Shown here: positions 33,279 through 60,622 of the stretch, piece after piece
Position numbering within the stretch: position 1 is the first letter of the stretch
Layout of the letters: the number at the start of each line of letters is the position of its first letter
Virus record (IMG/VR): IMGVR_UViG_3300026512_000011
Span: 1-63,419 of that record
Reading direction: 5' to 3' (one strand)
DNA: 63,419 bases
DNA from: a virus
Notes under the pieces: model-generated
What the model was told of the DNA's origin: nothing
Seen by the model: the letters and a program-made list of their open reading frames with translations, nothing else
The model's database searches: none
Program-made: the position numbers and the translations under genes

Positions 33279-34517
33279 TCATCGTGGGAATAACTCCCAC
33301 TCCACAGGCTTAACTTCCCCGCAGTCCACGGGTAGGGCAGACTTTAACGGGTCTGCCAGCCGCTCTAACGCTATTCTAAGTATGTTTCTTGCTGAATTGA
33401 CATCTCTGTCTATTTCTCTTCCACACTTTTGACACCTAAAGACTCTCTCTGATAGAGAGATTTTCTGCTTATGCCCGCAGAAAGAACAGGTTTGAGTGGT
33501 AGGCTCAAACCTATCTATAAAGACCACAGGAATAAGGGTCGCAAGGTTTTTCAGCCTTACAGTTATTCCCCCTATTCCTGTGTTCTGTATCTGTTTGCCA
33601 AAGTATCCCTCTTTCCAGCTCTTGATTGAATCGTCCTGTATTGCTATAAAGGAGAACCCCTTGAGGTAGCTTACAACCTTATTGAGCGTGTCTTTCCTCT
33701 TGTTGTTGATGTATTCCCACTCTCTCCTGATTAGCTGTTTTGTTTTCCAGTAGTTCTTACTCCCTTTCTTCTTTCGGGATAAGGATTTTTGAAGTCTTAT
33801 GAGTCTTTTAGTTTCAGGTATATACCAGCTAAATTTCTCTCCATTTGATAGAGTTAGCTGGTGTTTTATTCCTAAGTCTATACCTATCGGCTCTTTTAAT
33901 TGCCTTTCTCTAATTTCTCTTATGACCTTTTCTTTCGGCAGGTAGCAAACTATGTGCAGGTAATATCCAGAGGGTTTCTTTATGAGGTGTGCTTCTGCAA
34001 GTTCTGCACATTCAGGTATCTGGTGAAGTCCTAAAACTCTAAACTTTTTCTTTATTCCTTGTATTTTTACTCTATTCCTATCTCCAGAAAATTTATAGGT
34101 TATCCCATACTGTTTTAACGGAATACTCCTTACTTCACTCTTAAACGAGAGTTTCCCCACTCTGATTCCTTTTTCCTTTGCTCTTTTGAGGGAGAAAAGA
34201 CTCCTCTTTACCCTTTCTACTATTCCCTGTTTCATTTGTGAGGATAACTGTTTTATTTCCCGCTTCTCAAAACCTAACGGCGTTTTTACTTCTACTGCTT
34301 TGAGTTTCCAAGTGCTTCCGTTTAATCTGTTTTCAATGTCCGCAATTACGTAGTTGTATAGCCATTTAGCTTCAAGGAATAACCTGTTTAACGTTTCTCT
34401 GTCTTTTGCAGACAGGTTTTGAAGTTTGACCTGATAGACACGGGGTATCTGTTCTTTCCTCTTTTCCCGTGTTTGCTTTAAAGTATTCCTTATCTTTTCG
34501 GCTTTTACCTGTTCCAT
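33279..34517 (-). CDS. tnpB: TnpB RNA-guided nuclease (IS605 OrfB type)
   Basis: A 412-residue TnpB. RuvC-I: IGIDLGIKH (Asp214). The RuvC-II region reads FIAIQDDSIKSW (~290-301), where many TnpBs have Glu-Asp; this follows a QDE-type subfamily but with Asp for Glu. Zinc finger: CSFCG (344-348) and CQKCG (362-366); RuvC-III: RDVNSARN (Asp372). TnpB cuts target DNA guided by RNA from the element's right end and so keeps the element. Codons differ sharply from the phage genes, so it came from elsewhere. Activity depends on whether Asp295/296 can replace the second catalytic acid. Confidence 0.9.
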   Translation of the reverse strand: MEQVKAEKIRNTLKQTREKRKEQIPRVYQVKLQNLSAKDRETLNRLFLEAKWLYNYVIADIENRLNGSTWKLKAVEVKTPLGFEKREIKQLSSQMKQGIVERVKRSLFSLKRAKEKGIRVGKLSFKSEVRSIPLKQYGITYKFSGDRNRVKIQGIKKKFRVLGLHQIPECAELAEAHLIKKPSGYYLHIVCYLPKEKVIREIRERQLKEPIGIDLGIKHQLTLSNGEKFSWYIPETKRLIRLQKSLSRKKKGSKNYWKTKQLIRREWEYINNKRKDTLNKVVSYLKGFSFIAIQDDSIKSWKEGYFGKQIQNTGIGGITVRLKNLATLIPVVFIDRFEPTTQTCSFCGHKQKISLSERVFRCQKCGREIDRDVNSARNILRIALERLADPLKSALPVDCGEVKPVEWELFPR

Positions 34518-39733: not shown

Positions 39734-39957
39734 AGTATAATTGGTATGATGGGTTAGATGATACTACTAAAGAGTTTCTTGAAGATAATGGATGTTTGCT
39801 TTTTGGAATTGAATTGAATCCTGTTTATAAAGCAGATAGAAAATGTTTTAATATTGAATTAAATGTTTATCAATTTATTGTTAGGAATATGAAAGTGGCG
39901 AAAGTTAAAATGAAGAGAGTTAGATTTAATTTTAAATATCTAAAGGAGGCTGAATGA
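39730..39957 (+). CDS. Hypothetical small protein
   Basis: 75 residues, basic in its second half (MKVAKVKMKRVRFNFKYL). Coupled to both neighbours by ATGA overlaps, so it is co-translated with the ThyX genes. Unknown function. Confidence 0.5.
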   Translation: MKYNWYDGLDDTTKEFLEDNGCLLFGIELNPVYKADRKCFNIELNVYQFIVRNMKVAKVKMKRVRFNFKYLKEAE

Positions 39958-40994
39958 TGGATTTGAAGTATGTAAAGAAAGTAGCAAAGAAAGAAATTTA
40001 CAATTATTCTCCTACAAAAGGATTTGTGGAATTATGGGATTTTAGTAAATCTAATTTAAATCAAGAGTCAAGAGAAGAAACTGTATCAGTAGTAGCATCA
40101 ATTAGTTATGGTAATGAAATGGCTAAAAATCCTAAAAAACTTTGGGGGTTTCTTATTAAAAAAGGGCATAAAAGTCCATTTGAATTTATTAGATTTCCAC
40201 TTAAGGTAAGTAATAAATTTGTTCATTATGGAATAGAGAGTAGTTTGAGGAACATAGAATTTGAAAGTTATGGTCTTTCTAAATTTGATATAAATGTTCT
40301 TATAGATTTCCACAAGCAAACAATAGCTACTTTTAAAATTAAAGTTCCTCTTTTTGTAAGAAGTCAATATCATCGTCATAGATGTTGTTCATATTTAGAA
40401 CTTTCTCGTAGATATGTAAAACCTGATAAAGTAGAATTTGAATTTTGGTCTATAGGTAATCCTTATAATATTTATTTTGAAGTTGACAAAGAACAATTTA
40501 CTGTAGATATAGAAGAATTTAGTCTCGGAGATTTATTTGAATTATGTGAAGTTGCTTATTTTTCTCTCCTTGAAAAAGGTTATAAACCTGAAGTAGCTCG
40601 TTCTGTATTACCTCAATCTCTTTATACTGTATTTTGGGTAATGAAAGATTATAAATGTGCAAGGAATTTTTATGTAGAAAGATATTCAAAACAAGCTCAA
40701 GAACAGATAAGAGAAGTGGCAGAAGCAGAACTTAAACTTCTCAAAAAATATCAACCAGAATTTTTAGGACAATATGTAGCAATAGTTGGTGATGATAAAC
40801 TTGGATTGTATAAAGAAGAAACTTACATAAAAATCCTTGGTATTCAGGAACATTATAAAGCATTACAATCTAATGGTTGGAATAAAGATGCTAAATATGT
40901 TTATGTGGAATATGGAGATAAAGATTATTATGCAAAGTTTAATTTAGAGATTGGGTTATTTGACGAGAAAATTCTTAAGGAGGAGGTGAAATAA
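39954..40994 (+). CDS. thyX: Flavin-dependent thymidylate synthase ThyX
   Basis: 346 residues. The ThyX signature RHRCCSYLELSRR (~141-153) is intact, as are GHKSPFEF (~71-78), ARSVLPQSLYTVFW (conserved ARxxLP) and FYVERYSKQAQEQIREV with the Arg and Gln of the substrate site. It methylates dUMP to dTMP using FAD and methylene-tetrahydrofolate. It is longer than usual (~220-250) through an N-terminal extension and a ~60-residue C-terminal tail. It belongs with dUTPase, NrdD/NrdG and the kinase-like gene in dNTP supply. Confidence 0.9.
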   Translation: MMDLKYVKKVAKKEIYNYSPTKGFVELWDFSKSNLNQESREETVSVVASISYGNEMAKNPKKLWGFLIKKGHKSPFEFIRFPLKVSNKFVHYGIESSLRNIEFESYGLSKFDINVLIDFHKQTIATFKIKVPLFVRSQYHRHRCCSYLELSRRYVKPDKVEFEFWSIGNPYNIYFEVDKEQFTVDIEEFSLGDLFELCEVAYFSLLEKGYKPEVARSVLPQSLYTVFWVMKDYKCARNFYVERYSKQAQEQIREVAEAELKLLKKYQPEFLGQYVAIVGDDKLGLYKEETYIKILGIQEHYKALQSNGWNKDAKYVYVEYGDKDYYAKFNLEIGLFDEKILKEEVK

Positions 40995-41851
40995 TGAAAA
41001 ATCTTAAATATATTCGTAAGATTACAGAGGCTTATCCCTATAACTATGAAAATCCACCGATATGCAAGGTGGAACTTTGGGACTTTAGTAGGGCTAACGA
41101 AAACGATGAAGCCCGTAAAGAGGCAGTTTGCCTTGTGGCGTCTATTGATTATGACAACGAATACTGCAAAGACCCAGATAGGTTTTGGAATTTACTTATA
41201 GAAAAAGGGTATGAGAACCCGTTTGAGTTTGTGAGAGAATACTCTGCACTTAATCAGACATATAACTTACGAAATGAACAATTGGATACTATGACTTCTA
41301 TTCAAGAGGTAACAAGCACAGATTACATTAGAGATATGATTGATATAAATAGACACAATATTGCCACTTTCAAACTTAAAGTCCCTATCTTTGTAGCCCG
41401 TCAGATTCAACGCCACCGTTCGTTCTCCTATATGGAAATGAGTAGACGTTTTGTAAAGGGAGATAAGGTAAAGTTTGAATATTGGTTAAGACCAGAAATT
41501 TGTAGATATAAGGAGATAATAGAAGATATTTACGACGAATACGAAGGGGATTATAAACCAGAACAATTGTGTTCAATTCTCCCTCTTGGTCTTTATACTC
41601 AATTTTGGATGCAAGGCGACTATAAGGCTTGGTTGAATTTATTTATTCATTGTTTACAATTAGAAATACAAGAAGAAGTTTGTTTAGTTATTCAATCAAT
41701 GTGGGGACTTCTTAAAGAATATCAGCCTGAAATTATAGAAACAATGGCTGATTATATTGATGAGTGGACAAGAGACTGCAATCCAATGTTTAGAACAGCA
41801 AGGAAGAAAAAGGCTGATTGGTTTAGAGAAAACTTTTTAGGAGGTGAGTAA
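40994..41851 (+). CDS. Second ThyX paralogue, substrate-site residues altered
   Basis: 285 residues, aligned along its length with the preceding ThyX. The signature RHRSFSYMEMSRRF (~140-153) is kept. But the conserved His of HxSPFE is Tyr (GYENPFEF), ARxxLP reads CSILP, and the later Arg (VERY in the first copy) is IHCL. These positions contact dUMP or flavin in known ThyX, so this copy may be a non-catalytic partner or have another substrate. The 5' half uses CGN Arg and GCC/CCC codons and is richer in GC than neighbours, suggesting recent transfer or recombination. Its start abuts the first copy's stop. Confidence 0.82.
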   Translation: MKNLKYIRKITEAYPYNYENPPICKVELWDFSRANENDEARKEAVCLVASIDYDNEYCKDPDRFWNLLIEKGYENPFEFVREYSALNQTYNLRNEQLDTMTSIQEVTSTDYIRDMIDINRHNIATFKLKVPIFVARQIQRHRSFSYMEMSRRFVKGDKVKFEYWLRPEICRYKEIIEDIYDEYEGDYKPEQLCSILPLGLYTQFWMQGDYKAWLNLFIHCLQLEIQEEVCLVIQSMWGLLKEYQPEIIETMADYIDEWTRDCNPMFRTARKKKADWFRENFLGGE

Positions 41852-42282
41852 TGGAACTTACAGAACTTTTTGCAGGAGAAATGCAAGACATACAAATTTC
41901 TTTTGATGAGAGAATTGAAAAATTTAGAGTATCTATTCTTTATGAGAATGGAAATTTAGATTTAATTTTGAATCCTTTTGATTTTACTATTTTTATGGAT
42001 AAGATTATGAGTTACTCCATCTATGTAGAACTCATTTCTCATTTGGAAGATGATGTTTTGAATTTTTATCGTATATATAGTGCAATAGTATCGGCAATTG
42101 ATTATTTAATTTCTCCTACTGAAATAAGAACAAAGATTAAGAATGATAAGCTGGTAAAAGTTTTGGAAGATTTAATTCAGTCTTTTATTTCCAGTAAATT
42201 TGGCGAACAGTCTTCTATTATATGGGATTTAATTAGAACAGAAGATATAGTTATTTTTAAAATTGAATCTATGGAAAATTAA
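41851..42282 (+). CDS. Hypothetical protein after the ThyX pair
   Basis: 143 residues, acidic, mixed beta then helical (DFTIFMDKIMSYSIYVELIS). No known motif. Its ATG overlaps the ThyX2 stop (TAATG), and GGAGGTG lies upstream, so it is translated with it. Confidence 0.5.
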   Translation: MELTELFAGEMQDIQISFDERIEKFRVSILYENGNLDLILNPFDFTIFMDKIMSYSIYVELISHLEDDVLNFYRIYSAIVSAIDYLISPTEIRTKIKNDKLVKVLEDLIQSFISSKFGEQSSIIWDLIRTEDIVIFKIESMEN

Positions 42283-44483: not shown

Positions 44484-47400
44484 ATGAAGTCGAAGTATCA
44501 CAAAGTAATTGACTTGTATTTTAAGAACCACGACATCGCAAGAAATAATGCCAATTTTGTTAGGAGTATTTCTAATTTAGAGGGAATTGTAGTTGGTGAA
44601 GTACTGAAAGATTACTTTTTTGATGTAGTTGCTCACGATATTCCGATAAAAACACTTCATAATGAAGGATGGGCATATCTTCACCAAACCTTTAAATCAT
44701 TAAGTCCATATTCTTATACTGGAAAGAATGTTTTGATATTTAAAGTTAATAATGAAATAAAAATGATGTCATTTGAAGATGCTTATGAATATTTTGATGT
44801 AGATGAAATTTTAGTTGATTCGGAAAAAGAAGTTTACCAAAAAGATTTAACAAAATTAGATGTTCAAGTTCTTGATAGAAATGGATGGACAAAAGTAACT
44901 AAAATAACGAAAAAGAAAAGAACGAAAGATATTGTTATCTTAAAAACAAGGCATTCTGAAATAATAGAAATTACAGAAGACCATCCTGTTATAATTGGAG
45001 AAGATTGCGATAAAGATGTTATTTATGCTTCTGAAGTAATCCCTTATAAACACAAACAATTTAAAATTTCTTTAAATGATAAACTTGAAGAAGAGAATAT
45101 TTTTGGTGTTAATGAAATTGATATGGCTGATTTTGTTGATTTTGGTGATTACTATATTTATTCTGATTATATAATGAAAAGAGGAAAAGATACAGGATTT
45201 ATAAAAAGAAGGATTAGATTAACAGGTGAATTAGGTTATTTAATAGGTTATATTTTGGCTGAAGGTTATGTTGATAAAACATTTACAAAAATTGTTATAG
45301 AAAACAAAGATAAAGAATTACTTGAGGTATTTTTAGGAATTTTATTTACTAATTTAGGTGTTGTAGGTTATTTAAAGAATAAAGGAGATGTTTATGCTTT
45401 AGAAGTTCGCAATGTAGCTTTTTACGATTTTGTTAAATTATTTGCTGAAATAGATTATTATGCAGATGGCAAACATTTAAGTAAAGATATTCTTAAATAC
45501 TCAAAAGAATTTATTGCAGGCATAATAGCAGGTATTATAGATGGAGATGGGACTTTAGGCTCTAATGGACAAATAAATATAAGATTAACTTCAGGTAAGT
45601 TAATTTATCAGTTAAGTTATCTTTTAAGATTATTGGGCTATTATCCAACAATTAGTTACTGCGATAATAAAGTTAAAGATTCAGAAAATAATGAACTTAC
45701 AAAAACAATAAAACAAAGAAGAGATATATATGCTTTAATGTTTACAGTAAGAAAATTTAGTTCTGCTTATGAACTTCCTTCCATAAAATTTACAAAAGCA
45801 TTAGATTTTGCTAATACTTTAGATAGAAATACAATCTTCTATAAAGAGAACGAATGGGTAAATGTTCATAGCGTAAAGAAAATAAACAATCCTCTTGTTT
45901 TGAATGAAATAGAATATGTTTATGATATTACAACCGAATCTCACACATTTGCACTCCACAATATTTGGGTTCATAACTGCGTAGGACTTTCAGCTAAAGA
46001 TGTTGCTATGTTCGGTTTACAATCTAATGCTAAAAATGAAAGAAAAGCTAAACCTCCTAAAAGATTAGAAACTCTCTTTATGCAATGTGCTAATCTTATA
46101 TGTCTAATTGCTCAAGAAATTTCAGGAGCTACATCCTTAAACGATATTTCTACAATAGGAGCAAGTTATCTCTATTTCCTTGAAAAGGAATTTGGACTAA
46201 AATATGACCACCATAAGTTAGTTAATATTTGGCAAGAATTTCTTTACAACATAAACCTTCCATTCAGAGTAGGAATGCAATCTCCATTTTCTAACATAAC
46301 TCTTGAATTTGGTAAACCTAATCCTCATCTTGCTAATGAATATGTTGTATTTGCAGGGCAAGTAAAAGAAAGGAAATACAAAGACATACCATCTGAATAT
46401 TACAATAGAGTTGTAGATGCATTTGTAGATGCGATGAGTGAAGGAGATGCTGATGGAAAACCTTTTACCTTTCCGCTGATTACAGTTAATATTTACGATG
46501 ATTTTGATTGGGATAATCCAATATTTAAAAAACTACTTGAAAAATCTGAATATTTTGGTGGTCTTTACTTCCAGAATTATATGACTAAACCCTTTACAAC
46601 TGATAGTATTTATAAACAAAAGAATAAATTTTTAGAGCCTTTTGATATAGGAATGATATACAGCAATTGTTGTTATTATCCAACTCAAGAAATGTTTGTG
46701 TATAAGAATGGTAAAGTTTTAGACAAACTTACAATTGAGGAATTTTTCAATAAATATAAAGGAAATCTAATAAGAAAAGATAATGATGAGAAAAAAGCCG
46801 AATGGTATGAATTGAGCGACCAAGTATATGTTCCTGCGTTGAATTTAGATACAGGGAAGATTGAACCAAAGAGAGTTTCAAAATTACTGAAGATAAAATC
46901 TGATAAACTTGTTACTGTTGTGTTGAGAAATGGTGCTGAATTAAAATGTGAACCTACTCATCCTTTTATTGTTTTTGATTTTGAAAATGGAAGATTAGTA
47001 AGGAAATTTGCAAAAGATTTGACTATTGCAGATGTTGTTCCAGTTACTAAAGATTTAAATTCTTATGAATTAGTAAAAGTTGAAAGTATAAAAGTAGAAG
47101 AACTTGATTATGAACAAGTCTTTTATGATATTGAGGTAGAGGATAATCATACATTTGTATTGGCGAATGGTATTATTGGAAGTAATTGCAGAATGACCTT
47201 CAATATTGATGATGTTCTAAAATATACAGGTTCTAATCCATTTCATTCAAATAGTGGAATTGGAGGAATTGGAGTTTTTAATATAAATATGAACAGAATT
47301 CTCTTTTTAGCTAAAGATAATTTTGAATATTTCAAAAAACTTTTTGATTATATTTATGAAATTGGAGTAAAAACTCTTCAAAGAAAAAGACAATTTATTA

Positions 47401-47816
47401 GAGAACATTGGGAAGATTTATATCCATATCTCTCTTTCTACCAAAAAACAGATAAATCTCTATTTAATATAATTTCAGTTGTAGGGACTCACGAAGGATT
47501 AATTAATGCAGGATTTAAAGATGGATTAAAATCTGAAGAAGGCAAAGAATATGCAATAAAACTTGCTACTTACATTAGAGAGAAGATAGAACAATCTATT
47601 GAAAAATATGGAGAACTCTTTAATTTAGAGTATGCTCCATCTGAAAATGCTGGATGTAGATTAGCTGAAAAAGATTTAGCCTTTGCTAACAGAGTTGCTA
47701 AATATTTATCCAGTAAAGATATTTCTTTATCTGAAGATGAATATTTGGATAGAATTTCTAAATATATAATTGATTCCCTGAAGGAAGATATATTTAATAA
47801 AGTTGCAATAGAATAA
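44484..47816 (+). CDS. nrdD: Anaerobic (class III) ribonucleotide reductase NrdD, N-terminal part, with two inteins
   Basis: 1110 residues, of which ~516 are NrdD. Extein landmarks: KTLHNEGWAYLHQTFKSLSPY joining to CVGLSAKDVAMFGLQ, the ISGATSLNDISTIGASYL stretch, FPLITVNIYDDFDWDNP, and SNC joining to CRMTFNID, all typical of class III reductases. It reduces ribonucleotides using a thiyl radical made from a glycyl radical. The zinc site and glycyl-radical site are missing here and lie in the next gene. Two inteins (residues 77-498 and 730-901) must be spliced out before activity. Preceded by a promoter with an operator-like repeat. Confidence 0.88.
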   Translation: MKSKYHKVIDLYFKNHDIARNNANFVRSISNLEGIVVGEVLKDYFFDVVAHDIPIKTLHNEGWAYLHQTFKSLSPYSYTGKNVLIFKVNNEIKMMSFEDAYEYFDVDEILVDSEKEVYQKDLTKLDVQVLDRNGWTKVTKITKKKRTKDIVILKTRHSEIIEITEDHPVIIGEDCDKDVIYASEVIPYKHKQFKISLNDKLEEENIFGVNEIDMADFVDFGDYYIYSDYIMKRGKDTGFIKRRIRLTGELGYLIGYILAEGYVDKTFTKIVIENKDKELLEVFLGILFTNLGVVGYLKNKGDVYALEVRNVAFYDFVKLFAEIDYYADGKHLSKDILKYSKEFIAGIIAGIIDGDGTLGSNGQINIRLTSGKLIYQLSYLLRLLGYYPTISYCDNKVKDSENNELTKTIKQRRDIYALMFTVRKFSSAYELPSIKFTKALDFANTLDRNTIFYKENEWVNVHSVKKINNPLVLNEIEYVYDITTESHTFALHNIWVHNCVGLSAKDVAMFGLQSNAKNERKAKPPKRLETLFMQCANLICLIAQEISGATSLNDISTIGASYLYFLEKEFGLKYDHHKLVNIWQEFLYNINLPFRVGMQSPFSNITLEFGKPNPHLANEYVVFAGQVKERKYKDIPSEYYNRVVDAFVDAMSEGDADGKPFTFPLITVNIYDDFDWDNPIFKKLLEKSEYFGGLYFQNYMTKPFTTDSIYKQKNKFLEPFDIGMIYSNCCYYPTQEMFVYKNGKVLDKLTIEEFFNKYKGNLIRKDNDEKKAEWYELSDQVYVPALNLDTGKIEPKRVSKLLKIKSDKLVTVVLRNGAELKCEPTHPFIVFDFENGRLVRKFAKDLTIADVVPVTKDLNSYELVKVESIKVEELDYEQVFYDIEVEDNHTFVLANGIIGSNCRMTFNIDDVLKYTGSNPFHSNSGIGGIGVFNINMNRILFLAKDNFEYFKKLFDYIYEIGVKTLQRKRQFIREHWEDLYPYLSFYQKTDKSLFNIISVVGTHEGLINAGFKDGLKSEEGKEYAIKLATYIREKIEQSIEKYGELFNLEYAPSENAGCRLAEKDLAFANRVAKYLSSKDISLSEDEYLDRISKYIIDSLKEDIFNKVAIE
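44712..45977 (+). other. Intein 1 in NrdD with LAGLIDADG endonuclease (422 aa)
   Basis: From Ser77 to Asn498, ending HNIWVHN with Cys as next extein residue. Joining the exteins gives SLSPY-CVGLS, the normal NrdD reading. Block B-like TEDHPV (~164-169) is present. The homing endonuclease motifs are LIGYILAEGY (~253-262) and IIAGIIDGDGT (~347-357), both with their acidic residue, so it may still be mobile. The N-terminal nucleophile is Ser rather than the usual Cys. Confidence 0.82.
46671..47186 (+). other. Intein 2 in NrdD, mini-intein without endonuclease (172 aa)
   Basis: From Cys730 (CYYPTQEMFVY) to Asn901 (LANGIIGSN) followed by Cys. Block B CEPTHPF (~818) and block F/G VFYDIEVEDNHTFVLANGI are clear. 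Splicing gives SNC-CRMTF, restoring the paired Cys found in NrdD. No LAGLIDADG motif, so it cannot home by itself. Confidence 0.85.
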
Positions 47817-47835
47817 TTTATCGGAGGTAATGAAG

Positions 47836-48354
47836 ATGATAAAGCCAAAAATGTATGTTCAAGGAGATGTAGAATCAGGGAAAGTATTTCTTACATCGGG
47901 ATTTCAACTTCCATTTCAAGAAGAGGATTTGCTTACACAAGTAGATAATGCAGGACTGTTTCAAGGATTTGCAAGTGGAGGTGCCGTGCTCCACCTGTTC
48001 ACAAATGAAGAGTTATCAGTTGAACAGCAAATTAAATTAGTCAAATCAATTATGAATAATTTTCCAGTTTATTATATGACAAAAACTCCTTTCTTAACGA
48101 CTTGTAATTCTTGTGGACATAAAATGGTAGGGAAACACAACAAATGTGAAAAGTGTGGTTCGGATGATGTTACATTGTGGAGTAGACCTATTGGATATTT
48201 CAGACCAGTAATGAGGAAAAATGTAGATAAGAATTTTGAGAATGCAGAATATAAGTTTTGGCTTGATGGAAGAATAAAAGATTTTTCTACAAGAAAAGAA
48301 GTTACAGAAAAAGATGTAAATGATTTAATTGAAGAAATAAATGAAGGAATGTAA
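47836..48354 (+). CDS. nrdD: NrdD C-terminal part with zinc site and glycyl radical
   Basis: 172 residues, the missing C-terminal part of class III reductase: FQGFASGGAVLHLF, then TPFLTTCNSCGHK with KCEKCG (zinc Cys ~90, 93, 104, 107), then WSRPIGYFRPV, where Gly120 should carry the radical. A full stop codon ends the preceding gene and this one has its own GGAGGT RBS, so the protein is truly made as two chains. Together they make ~690 extein residues, the length of a normal single-chain NrdD. The ATG at 47836 is better spaced from the RBS than the one at 47830. Confidence 0.85.
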   Translation: MIKPKMYVQGDVESGKVFLTSGFQLPFQEEDLLTQVDNAGLFQGFASGGAVLHLFTNEELSVEQQIKLVKSIMNNFPVYYMTKTPFLTTCNSCGHKMVGKHNKCEKCGSDDVTLWSRPIGYFRPVMRKNVDKNFENAEYKFWLDGRIKDFSTRKEVTEKDVNDLIEEINEGM

Positions 48355-56695: not shown

Positions 56696-59600
56696 ATGAC
56701 TGATTTTTTTGGAGATTCTTTAAATCTCCAGTTATTAGAGGATAAATGTAAAGGCTGTAAATTGCACGACAAATGTTCAAGGAAAAGAAAAATAGGAAAC
56801 AATAATAATCCTAAACTCGTATTTATTCTGCCCGAAATAGAAACTAACGACGAGTTAAATTTCGATAATCCAGAACAAGTAAGAATTGGAACAGTAGCAA
56901 ATATTTGGAGAAGTATATCTCCAATATTTAAAAATTCTACTATAACTCCAAATGATATCTTATTTTTATTTGTAATCCCTCATAAAATAGAATTTCCCAA
57001 CAACAAAATTCCTAAACATAAAAAAGATGCATATAAACATTCAATTGCCGAACAATGTAAAGAACATTTATTCTATGAATTATATCAATTACCTGAAGAT
57101 GCAATTTTAATTCCAGTAGGTTCTCTCCCAACTCAAATATTATTAAATGCCAAAAATGTATTTAATTTATCAGGTAAGGAAAAAGAAAGAAAAATAACAA
57201 ATCCCTTAAACAAAAAAGAATCTAAAAAATTTAAAGTAATTCCATTAATACATCCTAATTCAATTCAATTATCGTTAAAAAATCGTCAAGTTTACATTAA
57301 ATCACTTAATTACATTTTTTATCTCTTATCAGGCAAAAAGCAAAATGAACTAAAATACAAAATTATTACTCCTGATAAAGTTAAAAGTTTTGTAGATAAA
57401 GTATTAGAAATAAGCCCTCCTTATGTAATATTTGATACAGAAACATCAGCACTTATCCATAAAGACAGAAAGATAATTGGAGTGTCTTTAAAATTTCCTA
57501 ACATTAAAACATCTTACTATATTCCTTTACATTCAAATAATTTCATTAATCCTGAAACAAATGAAGAGATTGTTATAACTGAATATGAAAAAGCAAAAAT
57601 AAAAGAACAAATAAAAAGATTGCTTACCACAATTCCATTTATAGGACACAACATAAAATTTGATATTGTAGCTTGTCAATTAGAAGGAATCTTAAGTGAA
57701 GATAATTATACTTTATTAGCCGATACTTATGTTATGGCTCACATAAAATACAATCAATCATTAGGAGGATTAGGACTAAAACATTTAGCAAGATTGTTTT
57801 TTGATGTATATGACGATTGGGATACTCCATTAGAAATTGAAAAACAAAAAATAGCAAAAATTAAGAAAATTCCAAAGAGAAATGTTTCTTATGCCGATAT
57901 ACAGACTAACTTATTAGGTAGGTATGCTTGTTATGATGTTTATTATACAGAATTACTTTACAATAAACTAAATCAAGAATTAACTCCCGAAGAACATCAA
58001 CTTCACAAACAAATTTTAAATGAAATAAAAGCAGTTGCCACTTGGGAATATTATGGAGTTAGAATAGATAAAGAAAATTTTGAAAAATTAAAACAATATA
58101 CAATAGATAAACATTCTAAAGCTAAATTTCTTATGCAAAATCTTCCTGAAATAAAAAAACATTTTGAAGATAAATTTAATCCTAATTCTACTAAACAATT
58201 ACAAAAAGTAATAGAAATTTATAATCTTCCAGTATTAGCAAAAACAGACACAGGACAGCCTAAATTTGATAAAAATGTAGTAGAACAATATCTAAAATTA
58301 GATAATATATCAGAGGAAGCCAAAACATTTATTCAAGCCTATGCAGAATACAAATATTATGAAAAAGCAGTATCATCTTACATAAATCCAATTCCCGAAC
58401 AAACTGATAATAATGGAATATTTAGAACTGATTTTAAAATTTGTGGGACAAGGTCAGGTAGATTAAGTTCATATTTCCATCTTCTTCCATCCAGAACTGA
58501 ATATGGTAAAAACTTCAAAAGATTAATATCACCAAAAAAAGAAGAGAATATTATCATTTCAGCTGATTTATGTTTAACTCCCGATACTTTAGTTTATACA
58601 GATAAAGGTTGGAAAAAATTAATAGATGTTGAGCCGAATAAGGATAAAGTTCTTAATGATAGAGGAGAGTGGTTAGATGTTTATTGTATAGTAGATAGAG
58701 GATATGGAGATGTCTATGAAATAGAGACTGAAAAAGGATTTAAAATTAAATGCACTTTAAACCATAAGTTTATGTGTATTGATAATAATGGTAAATATAG
58801 ATTAGCCACTATAAGAGATGTTATAGACAATAAATTTTATCTTGCCATAAAAACAATTGAAAATGAAAACTTTAAAAGAGATTGGTTGTATGTATTGTTG
58901 GGAATATTTTTAGGTGATGGTTCTGTAAAAAGTAGAAACAGTTTTGCAATATACCATTCCCATAAAACAAAAATTGATTTTACGAAATTTGTTTTAAATC
59001 AGCTTGGAATAATTTTTTCAGTTAAAAAAGTTAAAGGTAAAAATTGTTATGTAGTAAAATTTAATTCTTCTGAATTTTCTAATTTGCTCCATCAACTAAA
59101 GTTAATAGAAAAAGCCAATTCCAGATACAAAAGAAAATGTTTTAATGAAGTTCTTTATTCTTTGGATAGAGATAAAAGATTAAGTATTTTACTTGGATTT
59201 ATGAATACTGATGTTTATTGTGATGTTAAATATAATAGATTCCAATTATCAAATGTTGTTTATGATTTAATGAGATTTTTCCATCTAACATTATTAGATG
59301 TAGGAATTGTAGGATATTTTTATCCTGTAAAAGGAAAAGTATTTAATTTACCTAACAGACAACAATGTTATAACATATCTATATCGGGTTATTCTTATGA
59401 AAGGCTATGGAGAGTCTTCCCTGAATTGATAAGAATATTCAATCCTCCTAAAATTTCTAAATTTCAAGATAATACTTGGGGACTGCCTAATCAGAAAAAA
59501 ATAATTCCTACAACTTCAGGAAAATGGAGAGTATTGAAGAATACCTATACAAGAGGAGATATAATTTCAAAATACAAGATAGAAGAAATCTATGAACAAG

Positions 59601-60622
59601 ATAAGAATCTATACGAATTCATTAATGAAACTATAAAAATTGAATTGATTAAAGAATATGGATTAATTTTTGATAAAGTTAAATCAGTAAAGTTTTTAGG
59701 AAGGCAAAAAGTTTATGATTTGTCAGTATCAGGAAATCATATTTTTGTAGCTAATGGGTTTCCTCTTTCAAATAGCCAAGCCGAACCGAGAACAATGGCA
59801 TCTTTATCAGGAGACAAAAAACTTCAAGAAGTATATAATCAAGGCAAAGACATTTATAAATACATTGCATCAATTGTTTATCATATGGATTATGATAAAG
59901 TTCCTAAAGATACAAGAAACAAAATGAAATCACTTGTATTGGCTCTTATGTATGGTATGAGTCCTAAAACATTTGCAGAAAAATCAGGAATTACAGTAGA
60001 AGAAGCAGAACAAATATTTGATAGATTTTTCACAGAATTTAAAGATGTTTATAATTTCATTCAACAAAGACATAAAGAAGTAATGAGAAAAGGAGGCATA
60101 ACTACTCCTTTTGATAGATTCATAATAATAGACGATAGAGAAATATACGAGAAAAAGAAAAAAGCTCAAAACTATATCATCCAATCAACTGCATCTGAAT
60201 TATGTTTATTCCAATTTTCAGATATTACTCAACATTTAATCAAATCTAATATGAAATCAAGAGTAGTAGCATCAGTTCACGATTCAATAGTCATAGATAC
60301 TTATATTCCCGAAATATTCCAAGTTATCAATATAATGAGATTCAAATTAGAAAAAATTATACAATTAAAATATAAGTTTATTAGAGTTCCCTTTAGAATA
60401 GATATACAATTAGGAGTTAGCTGGGGGAATTCATTGGAGATTTCTAACACAATCCCAAATGGATATGAAATTGTAGGGTATAAAGAAGATTTAGAAAAAT
60501 TAATGGATAAGTTATCTAAATATGATTGGAAATATGAAATAATTGAAGAACACGAAGTTGAAATACCTGAAAACTCTTTAATTTCAGTCCCTATTGAAGG
60601 GACATACAAAATATACAAATAA
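56696..60622 (+). CDS. UDG-like domain + 3'-5' exonuclease + family A DNA polymerase with intein
   Basis: 1308 residues, 907 without the intein. Residues ~10-215 resemble a family 4 uracil-DNA glycosylase fold: Cys18, 21 and 27, VGSLPTQILL, and VIPLIHPNSIQL; but the catalytic GE-PG motif is missing, so it may be structural. Exonuclease: IFDTETSAL (Asp247, Glu249), IGHNIKFDIV, and RYACYDVYYTELL. Polymerase: CGTRSGRLSS, motif A ADL-SQAEPRTMASLSGD (split by the intein), motif B RNKMKSLVLALMYGM, motif C ASVHDSIVID (His1195, Asp1196). It is the replicative polymerase. Confidence 0.9.
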   Translation: MTDFFGDSLNLQLLEDKCKGCKLHDKCSRKRKIGNNNNPKLVFILPEIETNDELNFDNPEQVRIGTVANIWRSISPIFKNSTITPNDILFLFVIPHKIEFPNNKIPKHKKDAYKHSIAEQCKEHLFYELYQLPEDAILIPVGSLPTQILLNAKNVFNLSGKEKERKITNPLNKKESKKFKVIPLIHPNSIQLSLKNRQVYIKSLNYIFYLLSGKKQNELKYKIITPDKVKSFVDKVLEISPPYVIFDTETSALIHKDRKIIGVSLKFPNIKTSYYIPLHSNNFINPETNEEIVITEYEKAKIKEQIKRLLTTIPFIGHNIKFDIVACQLEGILSEDNYTLLADTYVMAHIKYNQSLGGLGLKHLARLFFDVYDDWDTPLEIEKQKIAKIKKIPKRNVSYADIQTNLLGRYACYDVYYTELLYNKLNQELTPEEHQLHKQILNEIKAVATWEYYGVRIDKENFEKLKQYTIDKHSKAKFLMQNLPEIKKHFEDKFNPNSTKQLQKVIEIYNLPVLAKTDTGQPKFDKNVVEQYLKLDNISEEAKTFIQAYAEYKYYEKAVSSYINPIPEQTDNNGIFRTDFKICGTRSGRLSSYFHLLPSRTEYGKNFKRLISPKKEENIIISADLCLTPDTLVYTDKGWKKLIDVEPNKDKVLNDRGEWLDVYCIVDRGYGDVYEIETEKGFKIKCTLNHKFMCIDNNGKYRLATIRDVIDNKFYLAIKTIENENFKRDWLYVLLGIFLGDGSVKSRNSFAIYHSHKTKIDFTKFVLNQLGIIFSVKKVKGKNCYVVKFNSSEFSNLLHQLKLIEKANSRYKRKCFNEVLYSLDRDKRLSILLGFMNTDVYCDVKYNRFQLSNVVYDLMRFFHLTLLDVGIVGYFYPVKGKVFNLPNRQQCYNISISGYSYERLWRVFPELIRIFNPPKISKFQDNTWGLPNQKKIIPTTSGKWRVLKNTYTRGDIISKYKIEEIYEQDKNLYEFINETIKIELIKEYGLIFDKVKSVKFLGRQKVYDLSVSGNHIFVANGFPLSNSQAEPRTMASLSGDKKLQEVYNQGKDIYKYIASIVYHMDYDKVPKDTRNKMKSLVLALMYGMSPKTFAEKSGITVEEAEQIFDRFFTEFKDVYNFIQQRHKEVMRKGGITTPFDRFIIIDDREIYEKKKKAQNYIIQSTASELCLFQFSDITQHLIKSNMKSRVVASVHDSIVIDTYIPEIFQVINIMRFKLEKIIQLKYKFIRVPFRIDIQLGVSWGNSLEISNTIPNGYEIVGYKEDLEKLMDKLSKYDWKYEIIEEHEVEIPENSLISVPIEGTYKIYK
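58571..59773 (+). other. Intein in polymerase motif A with LAGLIDADG-like region (401 aa)
   Basis: From Cys626 (CLTPDTLVYTDKGW) to Asn1026 (ANGFPLSN) followed by Ser. Splicing restores ADL-SQAEPR in the middle of motif A. Block F/G VYDLSVSGNHIFVANG is clear. A first endonuclease motif LLGIFLGDGS is intact; the second, ILLGFMNTDVYCD, has Asn-Thr-Asp-Val where Asp-Thr-Asp-Gly is usual, so endonuclease activity may be weakened. Confidence 0.88.

Follow-up and report, generated by a model that had tools for sequence, protein, structure and literature searches.

A horizontally captured ThyX homologue with altered substrate-site residues lies in tandem with an intact ThyX gene in a phage genome

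Overlapping ThyX genes

We analyzed the IMG/VR virus record IMGVR_UViG_3300026512_000011 over its entire 63,419 bases (here called the window). A first-pass annotation had placed tandem genes for flavin-dependent thymidylate synthase (ThyX) at positions 39954 to 41851, and our analysis recovered both open reading frames (ORFs) there, on the plus strand, as members of the Thy1 family. As judged by ORF, Thy1 match, and alignment, ThyX1 (39954 to 40994; 346 amino acids [aa]) is a flavin-dependent thymidylate synthase homologue, and ThyX2 (40994 to 41851; 285 aa) is a ThyX homologue from which substrate-site residues have been lost. They are the sole Thy1 (PF02511) matches in the record, scoring 98.9 and 78.1 bits, respectively, against a cutoff of 24.8 bits. 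With the NCBIfam thyX equivalog model (TIGR02170; cutoff, 87.9 bits), ThyX1 scored just below the cutoff (85.3 bits), ThyX2 scored below it (49.4 bits), and the ThyX of a related phage contig, L006, reached 104.3 bits.

The two genes are adjacent, run in the same direction, and have one base in common at a TAATG stop/start overlap. The left border of ThyX2 (GGAGGTGAAATAATG; 40982 to 40996, plus strand) holds a ribosome-binding site and this overlap. The right border (GGAGGTGAGTAATG; 41840 to 41853, plus strand) is a near-repeat of the left one and contains the overlap between the ThyX2 stop and the next start, so that GGAGGTGA(AA/G)TAATG flanks the gene at 40982 and 41840. The following gene (41851 to 42282, plus strand) encodes a 143-aa protein of unassigned function, and its start overlaps the ThyX2 stop as at the ThyX1/ThyX2 junction. 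These TAATG overlaps agree with the back-to-back translation proposed in the first-pass annotation and support a predicted translational coupling of ThyX1 and ThyX2.

Residues are numbered here by the T. maritima ThyX sequence, in a version that matches the PDB segments examined. The ThyX1 motifs are GHKSPFE, RHRCCSYLELSRRY, ARSVLPQSLYT, and VERYSKQAQEQIR; in the alignment, every catalytic motif residue is present (H53, Q75, RHR, E86, S88, R90, Y91, R147, and R174), and there are no reciprocal losses relative to ThyX2. With its motifs intact, ThyX1 is presumably the working thymidylate synthase of the phage. A role as dTMP source fits the window's standard deoxynucleotide gene set, which comprises an anaerobic ribonucleotide reductase NrdD with inteins, an NrdG-like radical-SAM protein, and a dUTPase. 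The NrdD gene (44484 to 48354) has two intein-like insertions, and the C-terminal part of the protein, with a zinc-ribbon, is encoded in a separate ORF (47830 to 48354). Another intein, together with a LAGLIDADG homing endonuclease domain, is found in the family A DNA polymerase (56696 to 60622). Past its Thy1 domain, ThyX1 has a C-terminal extension of about 75 aa (40764 to 40991) that is conserved across the ThyX1 clade and matches no known family; three strands are predicted in it with low confidence.

Substrate-site residues of ThyX2

The corresponding motifs of ThyX2 are GYENPFE, RHRSFSYMEMSRRF, LCSILPLGLYT, and IHCLQLEIQEEVC. It had been noted at first pass that ThyX2 keeps RHRxxSxxxxSRR and has lost the His of HxSPFE (to Tyr), the Arg of ARxxLP (to Cys), and a later Arg (to Cys). 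The alignment confirmed the retained motif, which reads RHRxxSxxExSRR, identified the losses as H53Y, R147C, and R174C, and added S55N, Y91F, A146L, and A179I. In ThyX2's own numbering, Y73, F153, C193, and C220 stand in place of H53, Y91, R147, and R174. On the plus strand, KGYENPFE (41204 to 41227; H53Y and S55N) replaces the invariant GHxSPFE; RHRSFSYMEMSRRF (41411 to 41452), which aligns to T. maritima residues 78 to 91, is the FAD/dUMP-face motif, retained save for Y91F; LCSILP (41567 to 41584; A146L and R147C) replaces ARxxLP; and FIHCLQLEIQEEV (41642 to 41680; R174C and A179I) replaces FIHRLHPEAQEET. Q75, E86, S88, R90, P151, and Q180 are also retained.

The placement of these residues rests on sequence alignment, which is unambiguous against the solo ThyX proteins of four related phage contigs (L004 to L007). 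A misalignment hiding the lost residues was ruled out, as the adjacent residues are identical to those of the solo relatives (FIHR in the relatives and FIHC in ThyX2). The two closest clades comprise nine intact members, and each of these keeps H53, S55, Y91, A146, R147, R174, and A179. Since the intact solo relatives keep all the residues changed in ThyX2, the losses are derived. Among 84 positions invariant across these nine relatives, ThyX2 differs at 12, compared with 0 to 7 for each intact member in a leave-one-out comparison. The active-site motifs, listed post hoc, hold 23 of the 84 invariant sites and 8 of the 12 deviations (Fisher P=0.0025).

In T. maritima ThyX structures, the contacts of R147 and H53 are with dUMP and with the folate/flavin site. 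In the same enzyme, R174 activates dUMP through N3 deprotonation, S88 and Y91 assist the transfer, and a Y91A substitution slows the transfer step more than 100-fold (PMC8316439). Three subunits contribute to each ThyX active site: one chain provides RHR and the R174 equivalent, a second provides S88, R90, and a Tyr lid, and the third has a conserved Ser that touches FAD (PMC6514825). We take this Ser to be the S55 equivalent. The substitutions support the prediction that ThyX2 has ceased to be an ordinary thymidylate synthase, and homologous mutants suggest that ThyX2 alone should not make dTMP. Conversely, the retained RHR, E86, S88, and R90 suggest that it can still bind FAD.

The AlphaFold2 monomer model of ThyX2 had a pLDDT of 76 and a pTM of 0.79; the AlphaFold monomer of ThyX1 had a pLDDT of only 60. 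Foldseek matched the ThyX2 model to T. maritima ThyX structures, including the H53D, R174A, and Y91F mutants, with a probability of 1.00. The query-normalized TM-scores were only 0.37 to 0.42, so the monomer model superposes poorly. These matches support the assignment of the predicted ThyX2 fold to the ThyX family, and both monomer models are too weak for arguments about the pocket or interface. Overall, ThyX2 resembles ThyX/FDTS (PF02511; EC 2.1.1.148; T. maritima TM0449) in its family match, its Foldseek matches, and its RHR, Q75, E86, S88, R90, P151, and Q180. It differs from the TM0449-type enzyme in lacking H53, R147, and R174, in carrying Y91F, and in falling below the thyX equivalog cutoff.

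ThyX2 was captured from a co-occurring phage type

The IMG/VR relatives of ThyX1 and ThyX2 form two distinct sets of contigs. Those of ThyX2 are the approximately 34-kb contigs L004 to L007 and one Mu-like prophage (L008), and those of ThyX1 are contigs of 52 to 89 kb (L009, L010, L012, and L013) and a 7-kb fragment. In whole-record searches, each related record that matched carries one ThyX gene (the double rows for G007 and G008 are one frame each), and the four larger contigs encode a ThyX1-type protein without a partner. ThyX2 is 62 to 67% identical to the proteins of L004 to L007 and 41% identical to ThyX1, and it nests with L004/L006 in the tree with a support of 0.94. Local tandem duplication was rejected, since ThyX2 groups with a different phage type. 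The four ThyX proteins of L004 to L007 are intact and similar to ThyX2 in length and in the C-terminal part; unlike ThyX2, they are single copy, with complete active-site motifs and a third-position GC content (GC3) of 0.43 to 0.46. L007 also has an integrase-like ORF, as judged by eye. The two sets share samples, identified by IMG/VR prefix: 3300026382 (L004 and L010), 3300026488 (L006, L009, and L012), and 3300037333 (L005 and L013).

With a GC3 of 0.31, compared to 0.14 for ThyX1 and 0.16 ± 0.05 for the window's genes, the third-position composition of ThyX2 has shifted about halfway from that of L004 to L007 to that of its new genome. Among the genes checked, only a transposon-type OrfB gene has a higher GC3. 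This OrfB_IS605/TnpB-like gene (33279 to 34517; GC3, 0.42) is the most foreign-looking of those checked and probably represents a transposon that arrived recently.

The stop of ThyX1 in L009 directly abuts a homologue of the 143-aa gene (GTAACGGAACTTAC; the window after ThyX2 reads GTAATGGAACTTAC). The homologue adjoins ThyX1 in other relatives as well, lying downstream in L009 and upstream in L010 and L012; thus, ThyX2 interrupts the ThyX1/143-aa pair in the window. At L009:11017-11122, the homologue has ACG at the position of the window's stop-overlapping ATG, and its first 35 or so codons lie outside the called ORF. An assembly chimera is unlikely, as a coupled TAATG junction forms each border and the flanking genes have a window-like GC3. 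Together, phylogeny, composition, and synteny show that ThyX2 is a xenologue captured horizontally from a co-occurring phage type of approximately 34 kb and inserted between ThyX1 and its neighbor.

The Mu-like prophage L008 (IMGVR_UViG_2890528774_000002) carries an openly broken ThyX relative (L008:9992-10690) with a 232-aa open frame, in which RHR, S88-R90, and ARxxLP are changed or deleted; no close relative of it was found. A scan of cellular genome contigs for ThyX2-family relatives yielded none that could be confirmed, further scans for relatives of ThyX2, of the broken L008 gene, and of ThyX1 returned known loci only, and searching with the 143-aa gene gave no match.

A broad ThyX query matched 2,170 phage records at 2,170 places, so no record had two; two further queries likewise gave no double (843 places in 843 records and 583 in 583). 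These queries would detect both window genes at a database-scaled E of about 1e-39 or better, which makes the test sensitive to such pairs and not to strongly decayed copies. No second phage with a ThyX pair or with ThyX2's substitutions was found in IMG/VR, and our literature search found no paper on ThyX pseudoenzymes or ThyX hetero-oligomers. Two ThyX versions, one of them viral, occur in an ANME-1 bin (PMC9894754). Hence, two ThyX genes per genome were already known; for a phage with such genes in tandem, one of them dead, our searches gave no earlier example.

Retention or decay of ThyX2 and its possible role

To assess constraint on ThyX2, we used home-made models applied to one sequence from one genome. 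In a codon model, the ThyX2 branch had an omega of 0.117, compared to 0.129 for the background, and fixing omega at 1 was worse by 24 lnL units; these branch statistics also cover the period that preceded the losses, saturation affects the synonymous sites, and the GC shift violates the assumption of constant composition. When the branch was split into constrained and neutral parts, the neutral part was 0.04 substitutions per codon, with an upper limit of about 0.16. In simulations, neutral drift reached the observed GC3 after about 0.4 substitutions/site, at which 0 of 1,000 ORFs remained open and identity to the starting sequence fell to 43%. Three of five invariant Ala residues became Ile or Leu in ThyX2 by at least two base changes each, for which a brief neutral phase (0.055/site) gives a P of about 2e-7. 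Modeling of this single saturated branch points to a long-constrained gene with a remodeled pocket; a recent loss of function may lie atop an older constrained history. As the pair is found in one genome only, conservation of the dead form is not directly demonstrable.

The reading we prefer, to which we assign a moderate probability, is that ThyX2 is a captured ThyX turned pseudoenzyme and retained as a noncatalytic ThyX subunit. It would have lost dUMP-binding and dUMP-activating residues in this lineage but retained its frame, the flavin motif RHR, and the S88/R90 face, and the modeling suggests that selection has kept it as a ThyX-fold subunit. Most likely, it would co-assemble with an active ThyX chain and change how stable or active that chain is or how it loads flavin. 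One candidate partner is ThyX1; a more speculative one is the ThyX of the approximately 34-kb phages, which is much closer to ThyX2. Any site needing R147 or R174 from ThyX2 should be dead, and a mixed site with R147/R174 from ThyX1 and S88/R90 from ThyX2 would have Phe instead of Tyr91. Unless ThyX2 acts allosterically, mixed tetramers would then have lower activity at each site, and the 41% identity of the two proteins makes their co-assembly uncertain. As a precedent, a dead paralogue retained in another tetrameric enzyme family, the trypanosomatid deoxyhypusine synthase prozyme, activates its partner allosterically (PMC3663545). That enzyme has an unrelated fold, and its complex formation and activation were measured, whereas for ThyX2 both are hypothetical.

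Somewhat unlikely, in our estimate, is that ThyX2 is a redundant captured gene in early decay, with selection recently relaxed by the dTMP supply from ThyX1 and with Arg and His codons removed by C-to-T mutation in the AT-rich genome. H53Y, R147C, R174C, and R184C (ThyX2 residue 230) are each one C-to-T step from the CAT, CGT, or CGC codons of relatives, a change in line with the AT bias of the genome; the ThyX2 branch is somewhat longer than those of its sisters (0.58 versus 0.31 to 0.48); and the broken gene of L008 indicates that ThyX genes decay in such phages. However, the losses cluster in the active site rather than spreading over the invariant sites (P=0.0025), the three Ala-to-Ile/Leu changes are multistep, and the ORF is intact, while only 1.8% of simulated ORFs stayed open under neutral drift at 0.055/site. 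It appears improbable that ThyX2 performs some other flavin-dependent reaction, such as one on a different pyrimidine nucleotide. This idea, raised at first pass, gained no positive support: the uracil-activating R174 is gone, as are R147 and H53, Y91 is altered, and no DNA-base hypermodification gene was recognized among the larger annotated ORFs of the window. It would account for the kept flavin-binding RHR and S88/R90 and for a pocket altered at several multistep positions, and it has a precedent in PolB of Streptomyces, a neofunctionalized ThyX paralogue that methylates UMP and is likewise a second, diverged ThyX beside another in its genome (PMC5954106). PolB is catalytically active, in a nucleoside-antibiotic pathway, whereas ThyX2 has lost the Arg that activates uracil.

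The first-pass annotation had also suggested a hetero-oligomer of ThyX1 and ThyX2, which is possible given the three-subunit sites (PMC6514825) and an ORF apparently kept by selection. In its obligate form, in which each protein of a hetero-tetramer would supply one face of shared sites, we regard it as very unlikely. Of the chains that contribute to a shared site (PMC6514825), ThyX2 has lost chiefly residues of the one that gives R174 and RHR and has kept most of those of the S88/R90/Tyr lid chain, and the genes overlap by TAATG. Nevertheless, as ThyX2 has Phe for its lid and Asn for the FAD-contacting S55, mixed sites would be weakened; because Y91F affects the opposite face, they would be impaired rather than complemented. 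In addition, the ThyX1-type proteins of L009, L010, L012, and L013 have no partner, and ThyX1 lacks reciprocal losses, whereas obligate partners often divide losses. We give a similarly slim chance to ThyX2 being a copy of a rival phage's ThyX, captured and disarmed, that serves as a poison subunit. On joining the competitor's tetramer, it would inactivate the shared sites and thereby deprive that phage of dTMP; its 62 to 67% identity to the ThyX of the approximately 34-kb phages, versus 41% to ThyX1, implies that it would mix with the former, and ThyX1, too diverged to mix, would be unaffected.

If decay is the explanation, the locus still clearly exemplifies how co-occurring phage types exchange genes and how redundancy is then lost. 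If ThyX2 is functional, it would be the first ThyX pseudoenzyme so far as we could find, and a phage-encoded one, as well as a natural tool for dissecting the share of each subunit in the ThyX active site. It would mean that a noncatalytic subunit is able to regulate ThyX or else that phages turn captured, disarmed metabolic enzymes on their rivals.
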